NCBI GenBank assembly: GCA_018970085.1 | Contig: JAGWXD010000022.1 | Coordinates: forward strand, 1-46,229 | DNA from: Cyanobacteria bacterium REEB459 | GTDB taxonomy: Bacteria > Cyanobacteriota > Cyanobacteriia > Phormidesmidales > Phormidesmidaceae | Direction: 5' to 3' | Length of the DNA: 46,229 nucleotides | Shown here: in pieces, positions 2,845 through 10,449 of the stretch | Layout: the number at the start of each line of letters is the position of its first letter | How positions within the stretch are numbered: the first letter of the stretch is position 1 | Notes under the pieces: model-generated | What the model saw: the letters and a program-made list of their open reading frames with translations, nothing else | Told to the model about the DNA's origin: nothing | Database searches by the model: none | Made by a program: the position numbers and the translations under genes

Positions 2845-3513
2845 CTAACTAGGTGGCAGCCGATCCAGGGAGAGGCGAGCGGCTTCTGCGACTTGAAAGT
2901 TAAGGTCTTTTTCGAGGTACCGCAGGGCTGATTTGGCTTGGGGGCTGGGCAAGTTACCAAGAGCCTCCGCTAGCCGTTGGCGCACCAGCCAATCCTCTGA
3001 CTCAACGAATTTCAGCATGGCTGGGATGGCTTCCATGTCACCGATTTCTCCCAAAGCTGCGATCGCCGCCTGCTGCATTACCACTTCATCGCTCCCCAGG
3101 GCCTGCAGTAAGACATCATGGGCGCGACTGTCCTTTAAATTGCCCAGGGCAACGGCGGCACTAAAGCGCACCAGCCAATCCGTATCTTCGTAGAAGCAGC
3201 GCACCAAAATCTCAAAGGCTCGGCCATCCTCTAGGTAGCCCAGGGCCCCAGCCGCATCCGCCCGAATACTGTAGTCAGCGTCGGTGGTTAATAAATTAAT
3301 CAAAATCTCAAAGGACTGGTCATCGGGCTTGATTCCGAGGGCAAAAACCGCCATGGAGCGAATTTGCAAGTTACTGTCATAGATCATCTGGCGAATCAAA
3401 GGAGCCGCCTGAGGGGCCGGGACATCACGCAGAGAAGCCAGAGCCAGCATGCGATCCCTGGAATTTTCGCTTTTTAGTTGAAGGGCAATTTGGTCTAAAT
3501 CTGGAGCGGCCAT
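2845..3513 (-). CDS. HEAT-repeat protein (PBS-lyase HEAT-like)
   Basis: A 222-residue soluble protein made almost wholly of about six 30-residue HEAT-like repeats. Each carries the recurring pattern of a short helix, a D-x-x-x-R/V-R turn and an A-A-x-A-L-G helix (for example VRFSAAVALGNL and IRADAAGALGYL). This is the PBS lyase HEAT-like family, which includes the phycobilin lyase subunits CpcE/CpcF, NblB and many general scaffolds. No phycobiliprotein genes lie nearby, so the lyase role is not supported and a generic protein-interaction scaffold is the safer description. The start ATG at 3513 opens straight into the repeat fold. It is read away from the petL candidate on the other strand. 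Confidence 0.8.
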   Translation of the reverse strand: MAAPDLDQIALQLKSENSRDRMLALASLRDVPAPQAAPLIRQMIYDSNLQIRSMAVFALGIKPDDQSFEILINLLTTDADYSIRADAAGALGYLEDGRAFEILVRCFYEDTDWLVRFSAAVALGNLKDSRAHDVLLQALGSDEVVMQQAAIAALGEIGDMEAIPAMLKFVESEDWLVRQRLAEALGNLPSPQAKSALRYLEKDLNFQVAEAARLSLDRLPPS

Positions 3514-3746: not shown

Positions 3747-3839
3747 ATGGGGTTTCTAGCCTTTGCACTGTTTCTGACCGGGATGGTGGGTCTCGCCTTG
3801 GGTCTGTACTTCAGCCTGAAGTTGGTGAAATTAATTTGA
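3747..3839 (+). CDS. petL: PetL-like cytochrome b6f small subunit (30 aa)
   Basis: A 30-codon ORF, too short for most gene callers. It encodes a single transmembrane helix: a short start MGFLAFALFL, a GMVGLALGLYF core and a C-terminal SLKLVKLI. Cyanobacterial PetL proteins have the same length, one membrane helix and a typical end of the form L-[KR]-x-x-K-[LI]-[IL]. A good Shine-Dalgarno sequence, GGAGA (3736-3740), sits six bases before the ATG, and a strong stem-loop terminator follows the stop codon, so it looks like a genuine single-gene transcript. PetL is a peripheral stabilising subunit of the cytochrome b6f complex in the thylakoid membrane. Other tiny one-helix photosynthesis proteins (Psb or Pet series) are possible alternatives, but their known sequences fit less well. 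Confidence 0.72.
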   Translation: MGFLAFALFLTGMVGLALGLYFSLKLVKLI

Positions 3840-4124: not shown

Positions 4125-4781
4125 ATGGCACTACCTGCACACCAACCGATTCTGCTGGTGGTTCTGAATGGCAAAGGTGGAGTGGGTAAAACAACCACTG
4201 CGGTGAACCTGGCGGCTATTTTTGCAGAAACCCGATCGGTGCTTCTGGTGGATGCCGATCCCCAGGGGTCGGCCCTGTGGTGGACTGGACGCAGCCCCAG
4301 GGCCCTGGGGTTTGATAGTGTTAAGGTTGCAGACGCAGCCGCCCTGGGGCAGTTAAGCCAGAGCTATCACCATGATCTGATCATCGTCGATACTCCGCCG
4401 GCGCTGCATTCCCCGGCCCTTACCCTGGTGTTGCCCATGGCGACCTACGTGTTACTGCCTACCCCCCCCGCTCCCATGGATTTAGCGGCCCTGATTACTA
4501 CGGTTAATCAAGCGGTGTCGCCCCAGGGGGTCCCCCATCGAGTATTGTTAACAAAGGTAGATTCCCGCAGTGTAGGGGAGGCAATCGAGGCACAAAGAAC
4601 CCTGCTAGATTTAAACATACCCGCCTGTAAAGCCTTTATTCGTGCTTACAAAGCCCACGAGCGGGCGGCGCTGGAGGGAGTTCCTGTCTTGCATTGGCAT
4701 GGTCAAAATGCCCAGGAAGCCCGATCTGACTATTGTCGAGTTGCTGAAGAAATAGAGCAAGACTGGAACCCCTATGACTAA
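4125..4781 (+). CDS. mcdA: ParA-family ATPase, probable type 2 McdA
   Basis: A 218-residue ParA/MinD-type ATPase. Counting from the ATG at 4125, the deviant Walker A motif KGGVGKT spans residues 17-23 with the signature lysine at 17, Walker A' is [11 protein letters not shown] near 40-50, and Walker B is LIIVDTPP with Asp89. The frame extends upstream to a TTG at 4089, but the ATG is chosen because it sits behind the purine-rich GAGAGAGA and matches where the family begins. Family knowledge: orphan ParA ATPases positioned with a small coiled-coil partner include McdA, which binds the nucleoid and spaces carboxysomes. Type 2 McdA keeps the signature lysine, as here. The next gene overlaps and looks like McdB, which drives the assignment. 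It is short for a plasmid ParA, and there is no ParB. A generic cargo-positioning ParA remains possible. Confidence 0.75.
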
Positions 4782-5352
4782 GAAACGTCTTTCTGACCTG
4801 TTGAAGGAAGAAGCTGGTAAATCCGATGCCGCCGACCTGCCTAGTCCCGAACCCCCACCCGAGGGGCGTCGCCCCCTGTCCCGGCGCCGTGGTACCGCTG
4901 CTGCCCTCCATAGCAGCAGTAGCGAGCTTGCCCCTGAGCCATCAGTGCCCTCCGAACCCCCTGCCCCAAGTGCTTTAGACCCTCGCCTTGCCGAGTTGCA
5001 GCAGGCCCTGGCTGGGGTCGAAGCCGAGAAAGCTGCCCTGGCCAGTACTGTAAAGGCTTTGCAGAGTGATCTGGAGGCTCACCAGGGGCGATTGTTTGAA
5101 CTTAAGGATCAACTGGACAAATCCCAAACAGAATTGCAGGCAGCTAAACAAACAATTTTGAAGCTCAGTCAGGCCCAGTCGGCCCCTACTCCGGTGAGTA
5201 AGTCCTCCGGTCGGGTTTCAGGGGTCGATATTCTGCCCCGCTCTCCCGGTCAGAGCAGACCTGGCTATAGCCGGGGTGTACCAGTCCAACCGGCCCAGGT
5301 CAGTCAGCCTAATCCGATGATGTCTAACGAGGATATTGGTTGGGTTGACTAA
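4774..5352 (+). CDS. mcdB: Coiled-coil partner of ParA, probable type 2 McdB
   Basis: A 192-residue protein whose ATG overlaps the end of the ParA-like gene by 8 bases, so the two are translationally coupled. Three parts are visible: a short charged N-terminal motif ([14 protein letters not shown], 1-14), a Pro/Ser/Arg-rich disordered stretch (about 20-68), a coiled coil (about 70-135, heptads rich in L/A/E/K/Q) and a disordered Gly/Pro/Ser C-terminal tail ending in GWVD, with the only tryptophan at 190. Family knowledge: McdB proteins are disordered-coiled coil-disordered adaptors that link McdA to carboxysomes, with an invariant tryptophan at or near the C-terminus; type 2 members carry an N-terminal charged motif. 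All these traits are present. Sequence similarity in this family is low, so the call rests on architecture and context. Confidence 0.7.
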
Positions 5353-7669: not shown

Positions 7670-8371
7670 CTAAACTGCCAGAAATTGCTGAATAACGCTG
7701 CTGCTCAATTCGTGGGTAGGGCCAGAGGCGACAATTCCACCCTTTTGCATCGCGTAGTAGTAGTCGGCTTGGCGAACAAAGTGCAGGTGTTGTTCCACCA
7801 GCAGCACCGAAATACCCGTCGTAGCGATAATCTGCCGTACCGCTGCCTCAATATCTAGAATGATTGAAGGCTGGATCCCTTCTGTCGGCTCATCCAGTAG
7901 GAGTAACCTGGGACGGCCCATAATCGCCCGGGCGATCGCCAATTGTTGTTGTTGCCCACCGCTGAGGTCACCCCCCATGCGCCCTAGCATGGTTTTAAGG
8001 ACAGGAAATAATTCAAAAATCGATTCAGGAATATCCTGGCTCACCTTGCCCCGTTTCCCCAGGGCTTCCTGGCCAATTATCAAGTTTTCGCGAACTGTCA
8101 ATCTAGGGATAATTTCTCGCCCCTGGGGCACGTAACTAATGCCCCCGCAGGCCCGGCGATCGGGAGTGAGTCCATTAATTAGTTGACCTTCGTAACAAAT
8201 CTCTCCCCGTCGAGGTTGCAATAAGCCCACAATATTTTTCAACAGAGTTGTCTTGCCGACCCCATTGCGGCCAATTAAGCACACCATCTGCCCCTTGGGT
8301 ACGGTGAGATTCACATCCCGGAGGATATGGCTTTCACCGTAGTAAAAGTTGAGGCCCGTAATAGTTAGCAT
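7670..8371 (-). CDS. urtE: Urea ABC transporter ATP-binding subunit UrtE
   Basis: An ATPase of the branched-chain amino-acid/urea (HAAT) class. It has Walker A GRNGVGKTT, the signature LSGGQQQQLAIARAI, Walker B LLLLDEPTEGIQP and the switch VLLVEQHLHFV. UrtE with UrtD energises urea uptake through the UrtB/UrtC channel. I take the start at 8371 (MLTITGLNFYYGESHILRDV), where the family begins. The frame also contains ATGs at 8422 and 8440 that would add a proline-rich leader of 17 or 23 residues. No start has a clear ribosome site. It is the last gene of a urtB-C-D-E cluster, with a longer gap after urtD than between the other genes. LivF-type subunits are similar, but the neighbours fix the urea assignment. 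Confidence 0.9.
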   Translation of the reverse strand: MLTITGLNFYYGESHILRDVNLTVPKGQMVCLIGRNGVGKTTLLKNIVGLLQPRRGEICYEGQLINGLTPDRRACGGISYVPQGREIIPRLTVRENLIIGQEALGKRGKVSQDIPESIFELFPVLKTMLGRMGGDLSGGQQQQLAIARAIMGRPRLLLLDEPTEGIQPSIILDIEAAVRQIIATTGISVLLVEQHLHFVRQADYYYAMQKGGIVASGPTHELSSSVIQQFLAV

Positions 8372-8536
8372 AGGAGCCGTCGTGGGATTCTGATAGGAGG
8401 GGGAAGGCTGGGGGGTAGTCATGGCAAAAAAAATAAACAATCGGACCAGAGTCTCAGCAGAGGGGGCTGGGGGGAGTTTCTAAATGACCCCCCATAGAAG
8501 ACCAGGGTAGGCAGCGGATTACTTAAGCCCGGTGAC

Positions 8537-9280
8537 TCAGCTGGCTTCTTCGCCCAGATAGACTTCAATCACGCGAGCATCGTTTTGAATTTGATCCATA
8601 GTGCCCTCACACAGAACCGTACCCTCATGCAAAACCGTAACCTGACGAGCAATCTGGCGCACAAATTCCATATCATGCTCGATCACAACAATGGAGTGGC
8701 TGGCAGCTAGGGACAATAGCAGTTGACCGGTTTTGGCCGTTTCCTCATCGGTTAGCCCTGCCACCGGTTCATCCACCAGTAGCAGATCGGGGGATTGGGC
8801 CACCAGCATGCCAATCTCCAGCCATTGCTTCTCACCGTGGGAGAGCAAGGCGGCAGGAATATCAGCTTTGTAGTCCAGGCCGATGGTTTCCAATAACCCG
8901 GCTACAGTACGCTTTTCAGCGGGGGGAGTCTGCTTAAAAAGGGTGGCCAGAACATTCTTTTGCCGGTTACAGGAGAGTTCCAGATTCTCACGGGGGCTCA
9001 AGTTCAGGTATACCCGGGGAGTCTGAAACTTTCGCCCAATACCCAGGCAGGCAATTTCGTGTTCCTTCCGTTTGCGCAGGTCTTTGCCCTTGAAGTAGGC
9101 AGCCCCTTCGGTGGGTTCAACTTTGCCAGTAATTACATCTAAAAAGGTAGTTTTACCAGCTCCATTGGGGCCAATAATCACCCGTAGTTCGCCTTCCTCC
9201 ATGGCAAAGTTGAGGTGATTAAGGGCCTTAAATCCGTCAAAGCTAACGGTAACGTCCTGAATATCTAGAATTTTACTCAC
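8537..9280 (-). CDS. urtD: Urea ABC transporter ATP-binding subunit UrtD
   Basis: A 247-residue ABC ATPase of the LivG/UrtD type. It has Walker A GPNGAGKTTFLDV, Walker B LLLVDEPVAGL and the switch region IVVIEHDMEFVRQIA. The signature is LSHGEKQWLEIGMLV, where SHGE replaces the usual SGGQ, as is typical of UrtD. The TPRVYLNLSPRENLEL stretch is also characteristic. It lies 5 bases downstream of urtC, consistent with one transcript. It partners with UrtE as the cytoplasmic motor of the urea importer; urea is then split by urease, which is not encoded in this window. Confidence 0.94.
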   Translation of the reverse strand: MSKILDIQDVTVSFDGFKALNHLNFAMEEGELRVIIGPNGAGKTTFLDVITGKVEPTEGAAYFKGKDLRKRKEHEIACLGIGRKFQTPRVYLNLSPRENLELSCNRQKNVLATLFKQTPPAEKRTVAGLLETIGLDYKADIPAALLSHGEKQWLEIGMLVAQSPDLLLVDEPVAGLTDEETAKTGQLLLSLAASHSIVVIEHDMEFVRQIARQVTVLHEGTVLCEGTMDQIQNDARVIEVYLGEEAS

Positions 9281-9285
9281 TGGAG

Positions 9286-10449
9286 TTAACCTTCCTTCTC
9301 TGCCAGAGTATCAGCCCTTAACTCATCATTTTCTCCGTAGGCCATAGGACCAGCCGATAGCCCCAGGGCTTGACTGACGGTGGGGCCAAACTGCCGTCGC
9401 CCCCAACCAATCAAACCATCCGGCAGGGCCGTAACCACCAAAAGAAATAGGGCTCCTTGAAAGAACAGCCAGATATTGGGAAACCGTTCGCTTAAAAGGC
9501 TGCGGGCCATATTGACTAAAACTGCTCCGAGAATCGCTCCCACCAGAGTAGCTCTGCCTCCCACGGCTACCCAAATCACCATTTCGATAGAAAAGGCAAT
9601 GTCCATGGCCTGGGGAGAAATAATACCCGACTGGATCGTATACAGAGCCCCAGACACCCCTGCGATCGCCCCTGAAATGGCGAACACCAGTACCTTAAAG
9701 CCGGTGGGATTATAGCCTGAAAACCGCACTCGGTTCTCATCATCTCGAATCGCCACCAGCATCCGCCCAAAGCGTCCACTGGTGAGCCATCGACAGAGCG
9801 CATAGACAATCACCAGCACCGCCACCGTCACCACATAAAGGAAAAACTGGGTTTCTGGGGTGCCAACCTGCTTACCCATCAAAATGCTGGTGTTGGTTTT
9901 CAATCCGTTGGTGCCGTTGATCAACTTTTGTTGACCATTGAAGAAGTTAAAAAAGACCACCAGGGCAGCCTGGGTCAAAATCGAGAAGTAAACCCCTCGA
10001 ATTCGGTTACGAAACACCAGGTACCCCAACAAACCAGCTACCAGGGCTGGGATGATAAAAATTGCCGCCAGGGTGAAGGGAAAGCTATAAAAGGGCTGCC
10101 AAAACCAAGGCAGGGAAGAAACCCCGTAAAGACTGAAGAATTCAGGAATCTGACCAGATGGAATCGACACTAGCGAAAGATACATGGCCAGGGCGTAACC
10201 GCCCAAGGCAAAGAAAATGCCATGGCCCAAACTGAGCAGCCCCGTAAATCCCCAAATCAGATCAATGGCCAGGGCAACAATACCAAGGGATAGAAATCTG
10301 CCCAGCAATCCCAAGCGAAAGTCCGTCAGCAGGTGAGGTAAACCCAACAAAAGGAATAGGGCGACAGCGATAACGGCAATCACTTCAAACACTATTTTTT
10401 TGCGTCCCAGGGCCTGGGCCAAACGTCGGGGCTTAACGGTTACATCCAT
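9286..10449 (-). CDS. urtC: Urea ABC transporter permease UrtC
   Basis: A 387-residue inner-membrane permease with about 8-10 hydrophobic helices. The family blocks are present: DLIWGFTGLLSLGHGIFFALGGYA, LLGYLVFRNRIRGVYFSILTQA, FNGQQKLINGTNGL and GRMLVAIRDDENRVRFSGYNPT, the cytoplasmic coupling loop that contacts the ATPases. It lies two bases after urtB and five before urtD, so it is clearly in one operon. LivM homologues are similar, but the length, the long extra loop and the neighbours identify UrtC. Confidence 0.94.
   Translation of the reverse strand: MDVTVKPRRLAQALGRKKIVFEVIAVIAVALFLLLGLPHLLTDFRLGLLGRFLSLGIVALAIDLIWGFTGLLSLGHGIFFALGGYALAMYLSLVSIPSGQIPEFFSLYGVSSLPWFWQPFYSFPFTLAAIFIIPALVAGLLGYLVFRNRIRGVYFSILTQAALVVFFNFFNGQQKLINGTNGLKTNTSILMGKQVGTPETQFFLYVVTVAVLVIVYALCRWLTSGRFGRMLVAIRDDENRVRFSGYNPTGFKVLVFAISGAIAGVSGALYTIQSGIISPQAMDIAFSIEMVIWVAVGGRATLVGAILGAVLVNMARSLLSERFPNIWLFFQGALFLLVVTALPDGLIGWGRRQFGPTVSQALGLSAGPMAYGENDELRADTLAEKEG

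Follow-up and report, generated by a model that had tools for sequence, protein, structure and literature searches.

A probable beta-type 2 McdA/McdB carboxysome-positioning pair in a Nodosilinea-like filamentous cyanobacterium

Maintenance-of-carboxysome-distribution (McdAB) systems have been described in relatives of the cyanobacterium studied here, in which McdA formed patterns on the nucleoid and McdB localised to carboxysomes (PMC6328274). The definitions of their types were taken from the review PMC8262871 and from research papers such as PMC11321042. Beta-McdAB type 1, found in Synechococcus elongatus PCC 7942, was described as having an McdA that lacked the signature lysine and contained a large insertion, together with an McdB carrying a C-terminal coiled coil (PMC8262871), while beta-McdAB type 2 was described as having an McdA with the signature lysine and no extension, an mcdB gene directly after mcdA, and an McdB with a charged N-terminus, a central coiled coil flanked by largely disordered sequence, a Gln-containing centre, and a C-terminal Trp (PMC8262871). 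In two species, McdB could not bind carboxysomes without its Trp (PMC11321042), and the first 20 residues of an alpha-McdB were both needed and sufficient for McdA binding (PMC12204374). In Gloeobacter kilaueensis JS1, MacCready et al. (2018) reported that the rbcL promoter drives an mcdA-like gene, with an mcdB-like gene coming after it (PMC6328274), and the McdB-like protein of this organism colocalised with the carboxysomes of S. elongatus (PMC6328274).

The window (the whole analysed stretch of 46,229 nucleotides) was contig C9 of a 3.24-Mb assembly of 102 contigs, and the host was a filamentous cyanobacterium with a Nodosilinea-like genome. The window carried a two-gene locus (Table 1) that is very probably a beta-McdAB type 2 pair, the maintenance-of-carboxysome-distribution system of this host, as judged from the sequence, the order of the genes, their orthology, their co-occurrence with CcmM, and their decay in two genomes without a CcmM match. 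The family is widespread in cyanobacteria, the pair is typical of it, and the system as such is already known. The original prediction, made from the window alone, had called it a probable type 2 McdA/McdB pair; orthology, profile tests, CcmM co-occurrence, and decay all supported that call. By analogy with the described systems, the pair would be expected to bind, stimulate ATPase activity, and position its cargo as follows: McdA would dimerise with ATP and coat the nucleoid; McdB would bind the carboxysome via its C-terminal Trp motif; the basic N-terminal helix of McdB would touch McdA, which would then be released from DNA; and the carboxysome would be drawn from the local zone of McdA depletion toward higher McdA, giving spacing along the nucleoid. 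Elsewhere in the window, an ORF at 2845-3513 (-) encoded a HEAT-repeat protein whose match to the phycobilisome degradation protein NblB stayed below the cut-off (160 bits versus 300), and an ORF at 3747-3839 (+) encoded a 30-residue membrane peptide (MGFLAFALFLTGMVGLALGLYFSLKLVKLI), which we take to resemble a small cytochrome b6f subunit.

Table 1. Coordinates of the mcdA and mcdB loci compared in this work and of associated genes
Feature	Location	Strand or orientation	Remarks
mcdA, beta type 2: ParA-family ATPase, 218 aa (very probable)	window 4125..4781	+	signature lysine K17, without mid-protein extension
mcdB, beta type 2: predicted carboxysome adaptor, 192 aa (very probable)	window 4774..5352	+	basic N-terminus, helix 65-136, sole Trp W190
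mcdA end / mcdB start overlap, 8 bases	window 4774..4781	+	translational coupling plausible
Second host ParA	G000:C23:248435-249040		separate ParA-2 clade
mcdA of G079	L130:9788-10408		62% identical to window McdA
mcdB of G079	L130:10417-10869
rbcL of G079	L130:7822-9267	divergent from mcdA	RuBisCO large subunit by NCBIfam
mcdA abutting ccmN	L200 (G186) 7969-9134; L201 (G245) 8893-10100	convergent
Unlinked mcdB-like ORF of G077, 144 aa	L204:6524-6958		starts MMEPQNLSDFLRQE, ends GDAEMGWFD
Unlinked mcdB-like ORF of G266	L205:5841-6518		ends TDSEIGWFD
Decayed mcdA/mcdB loci	L191 + L208 (G385); L192 + L203 (G345)

The window pair fell within the published type 2 definition because its McdA had the signature lysine without an extension and its McdB had a basic N-terminus, a long central helix, and a C-terminal Trp with nearby acidic residues (PMC8262871, PMC11321042). 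The deviant Walker A motif of McdA was NGKGGVGKT at residues 15-23, the type 1 mid-protein extension was absent from the 218-aa protein, and tblastn alignments of this McdA with 16 orthologs were unbroken from about residue 10 to 214. McdB had five K/R and four D/E among its first 20 residues and ended in NEDIGWVD, whose Trp was the only one in the protein and stood third from the end; acidic residues lay near this Trp within the last ten. All of this agreed with the original prediction of a ParA ATPase with the signature lysine in KGGVGKT and a small, N-terminally charged partner ending in GWVD with a lone Trp; as to the translational coupling also claimed there, the overlap of the two frames was found and coupling through it is plausible. 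Compared with the review's account of type 2, the window pair showed no difference in the tested defining features, and the Gln enrichment was moderate: Gln made up 13.9% of the McdB centre (residues 65-136) versus 14 of 192 residues overall, and no published threshold for it was seen (PMC8262871). The type 2 likeness extended to the presence of beta-carboxysome genes in the same genome.

Type 1 and the window pair would share the combination of a nucleoid ATPase and a carboxysome adaptor with a C-terminal Trp, but the signature lysine of the window McdA set the pair apart from type 1, a distinction drawn from published features alone. The basic N-half and acidic C-half of S. elongatus McdB (PMC10554743) were likewise absent from window McdB, whose pI was 6.6 for residues 1-64 and 8.6 for residues 137-192; this polarity was not among the defining features given in the review (PMC8262871). 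The McdA-like structures 6NON, 6NOO, and 6NOP, described as being of plasmid origin (PMC10554743), shared the ParA family and the Walker A region with window McdA, but their best matching stretch covered 48 residues (E 6e-7 to 9e-6) and they were not of the same ortholog group; the PDB search returned no carboxysome-positioning entry closer than these three.

The family libraries left the pair generic: the ParA scored below the partition-model cut-off (top NCBIfam model ParA_partition, 110 bits versus a cut-off of 180; Pfam matches CbiA with 60.5 bits and AAA_31 with 57.3 bits) and the second protein had no model over cut-off in Pfam or NCBIfam, where its sub-cut-off matches were to coiled-coil proteins only. 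An AlphaFold2 model of McdB, built from a 35-relative alignment, contained a short helix at residues 6-14 and a long one at 65-136, with low confidence elsewhere (pLDDT 96-98 over residues 71-130; block means 50-62 for residues 11-60 and 51-63 for residues 141-192); the long helix is predicted to form a coiled coil, and the low-pLDDT flanks fit the disordered and coiled-coil partner originally proposed.

McdB of the window had matches at E<=1e-3 in 32 of 57 genomes, its own included, and a 35-row McdB alignment had M1, L121, P170, and W190 invariant. Profiles lacking whole clades were searched against mixed targets: (i) a 27-row profile without Nodosilinea-like rows, run against 530 targets (the ORFs of the host genome plus 400 shuffled versions of the window and Gloeobacter proteins), had the window protein as its sole hit (E 6e-24), and (ii) a 32-row profile without Gloeobacterales, run against 458 targets, found only the Gloeobacter protein, at E 3e-16. 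None of the 400 shuffled controls was reported in these left-out-clade tests. Judged by these profile tests, the second window protein is very probably a true McdB homolog, beyond likeness of composition.

The comparison was also applied to 96 ParA loci, comprising the best 80 of 189 from a contig search plus 16 further loci; they came partly from the same genome (e.g., L087 and G186) and were not all independent. The best 80 ranged over Nodosilinea, Fischerella, Calothrix, Nostoc, Microcystis, and a Gloeobacterales genome. The listed McdA orthologs across cyanobacteria were 55-81% identical to the window ParA, and the closest named loci (L041-L058; 74-81% identity) were mostly from Nodosilinea and allied Leptolyngbyaceae. 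An McdB-like ORF passing the filter lay downstream on the same strand at 86 of the 96 loci; its Trp was third from the end in 57 and fourth from the end in 29, the filter itself having required a basic pair near the start and a Trp within the last eight residues. The spacing between the two frames was -8 to +7 bases in 76 of these 86 pairs. Among the loci failing the filter, L132 and L133 (one genus) had an adjoining mcdB with a different start (MASSKQNLSDLL...GWFD), and L114 had an adjacent ORF without Trp. No adjacent mcdB was found at seven of the 96 loci (four Microcystis, one Synechocystis-like, one Thermosynechococcus-like, and L087); the Microcystis loci L107, L111, L116, and L119 had an mcdA ortholog 59-60% identical to that of the window and lacked an mcdB directly after it.

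The host genome was searched with PF01656, which gave 25 matches at E<=10, of which the best 15 were inspected and the remaining ten were weak (E 0.03 to 0.67). NCBIfam typed seven of the 15 as MinD, cobyric acid synthase, CobB, Mrp/ApbC, ChlL, Get3/ArsA, and a second ParA on contig C23; the other eight were the window's own ParA, SRP54, CTP synthase, an APS-kinase-like protein, and two tyrosine-kinase-like proteins (the last five by eye), plus L161 and L162, which received no identity. The C23 ParA was rejected as a second McdA: it was 33-35% identical to the window ParA, it was followed by an unnamed 206-aa gene product without McdB features, and it belonged to a separate clade. In a tree that left out one misextracted fragment, one dropped row, and the long MinD branch, 22 McdA orthologs split from four ParA-2 paralogs at 100/100 support; the deep forks within the McdA orthologs were mostly poorly supported. 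The clade of the C23 ParA also had members in other cyanobacteria. Among six host ATPases compared, the window ATPase was the best match of Gloeobacter McdA (254 bits versus 108 for the C23 ParA).

The carboxysome genes of the host lay outside the window. Six PF00936 (BMC-domain) matches were found in the genome (four on C90, one on C94, and one on C68) and none on the window contig. C90 carried the single ccm cluster of the genome, in the order ccmK, ccmK, ccmL, ccmM, ccmN, and ccmO, with ccmM called by NCBIfam (the sole CcmM match of the genome, 653 bits versus a cut-off of 550), the shell genes by PF00936, and ccmL and ccmN from their position and their resemblance to the Gloeobacter-type set (below). 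In line with the original prediction, neither a shell gene nor a CcmM match was found in the window, and similarity searches left the pair generic; the check for ccm genes elsewhere in the genome, proposed there, was positive. An McdB profile recovered the partner even without its close relatives. Neither of the two outcomes named beforehand as counter-evidence was obtained: Pfam and NCBIfam gave no better match of the partner to another ParA adaptor, and no second McdAB, near ccm or elsewhere, was found among the best 15 of the 25 PF01656 matches.

The pair and the ccm cluster thus lay on separate contigs in the host, C9 and C90, and mcdA stood beside ccm genes in two other lineages. The first was represented by locus L130 of genome G079, which we take to be Gloeobacter kilaueensis JS1. 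There mcdA and rbcL were divergent across a shared intergenic stretch, and the ccm neighbours of mcdA were ccmO, ccmN, ccmM (885 bits), ccmL, and two ccmK. Its place by rbcL also suggests that this is the published mcdA-like/mcdB-like pair, although the divergent arrangement fits the published expression from the rbcL promoter only loosely (PMC6328274). Compared to the window pair, the Gloeobacter McdB was 28% identical with the same architecture, but the Gloeobacter pair adjoined rbcL and ccm genes. The second lineage comprised G186 and G245 (2.4-2.6 Mb; family f23, genus g100), in which mcdA abutted ccmN at the end of ccmK-K-L-M-N; no mcdB lay beside it in either genome, and elsewhere in them only weak profile matches were obtained (E 0.003-0.004). 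In G280, the third genome sampled from the genus, mcdA and mcdB were neighbours, and the shell genes lay on different contigs from them.

Co-occurrence was counted in three draws of 388 genomes from the class, each genome being at least 90% complete; the draws were taken as the same genomes from their shared handles and equal size. McdA was matched at E<=1e-45 in 188 genomes, CcmM at E<=1e-30 in 294, and McdB at E<=1e-5 in 228, the last with the 35-row profile, some of whose rows were supplied by the searched genomes. CcmM was present in 185 of 188 McdA-positive versus 109 of 200 McdA-negative genomes and in 225 of 228 McdB-positive versus 69 of 160 McdB-negative genomes; McdB was present in 179 of 188 McdA-positive versus 49 of 200 McdA-negative genomes, leaving nine McdA-positive genomes without a match at its threshold. 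Fisher values were not leaned on because shared ancestry inflates them. The McdAB pair is dispensable for having carboxysomes, because 109 CcmM-positive genomes lacked this McdA and 61 of the 294 had matches to neither protein in these searches; type 1 systems also exist, and alpha-cyanobacteria are described as having no McdAB (PMC8262871).

Those 61 genomes, together with the distance of the pair from ccm in the host and with G135 (L190; a 99% complete assembly with open mcdA and mcdB, one shell-gene match, and no CcmM match), would fit a ParA/adaptor pair serving some other protein cargo, such as another microcompartment, a storage granule, or a chemosensory cluster, whose correlation with carboxysomes arose only because both are common in cyanobacteria. 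This is most unlikely, as the host shell-gene matches were confined to the three contigs named above with no other microcompartment cluster seen, the Gloeobacter kilaueensis McdB-like protein binds carboxysomes (PMC6328274), and mcdA was broken in two congeneric genomes that had no CcmM match and only remnants of shell genes. It is barely conceivable that the pair partitions a chromosome or plasmid, with a diverged ParB-like protein as the partner of the ParA and DNA as the cargo: the nearest NCBIfam model by score was a ParA partition ATPase and the top PDB match a ParA-family chromosome partitioning protein, but the partner showed no DNA-binding domain and nothing over cut-off in either library, the host had a different ParA of a separate clade on C23, and the pair tracked CcmM, with mcdA by ccm in two lineages.

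The beta-McdAB type 2 reading was further compared with the three McdA-positive, CcmM-negative genomes, G030, G135, and G385. Both mcdA and mcdB were open in G030, whose two shell genes sat at a contig end; the ccm cluster of this genome probably continues beyond that end. In G385, in-frame stops interrupted mcdA, and none of its open frames contained an intact GKGGVGKT; mcdB had diverged but still formed a 194-aa open frame, which shared 43% identity with the frame of its congener and kept a Trp close to its end; and a single shell-gene remnant was split between several frames. The congener G345, which likewise lacked a CcmM match, had mcdA broken over three frames, mcdB broken by stops with the C-terminal end missing, and two broken shell-gene remnants, while their larger congener G319 (4.8 Mb) had both mcdA and mcdB whole. 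From their size and kinship, G345 and G385 are probably rhopalodian diatom endosymbionts. Such endosymbionts were described as having genomes of 2.5-3.1 Mb with Rippkaea as the nearest free-living relative, and as having lost carbon fixation, with 12 carboxysome proteins among their core losses (PMC12903740); McdA and McdB were not mentioned in the main text of that source. The decay is supportive of a carboxysome role and is not proof of it, because such reduced genomes lose many genes, and it is incomplete because mcdB of G385 was still open.

Two further genomes had mcdA and mcdB apart. G077 (2.5 Mb on one contig), apparently Thermosynechococcus-like, had an mcdA ortholog without an adjoining mcdB and an unlinked mcdB-like ORF, and G266, which appears to be Microcystis-type from its kin and identity, had an mcdB-like ORF about 2 Mb from its mcdA (Table 1). 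Together these observations raise a wider proposal, for which the balance stands even: McdAB would serve the carboxysome alone and decay upon carboxysome loss (G345 as a natural double knock-out and G385 as an mcdA knock-out with open mcdB), and mcdA and mcdB could be unlinked (G077 and G266) or mcdA could end a ccm cluster without adjoining mcdB (G186 and G245). If this is true, lineages seemingly with half a pair would carry a split pair.

For the family as a whole, the analysis gives names to two genes for which Pfam and NCBIfam offer no more than a generic ParA and a nameless coiled-coil protein, and the 35-row profile, with its McdB matches in 228 of the 388 cyanobacterial genomes, provides a basis for a possible curated family model. 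The erosion of mcdA and mcdB in CcmM-less genomes adds genetic support, separate from sequence likeness, for a carboxysome role of the pair.
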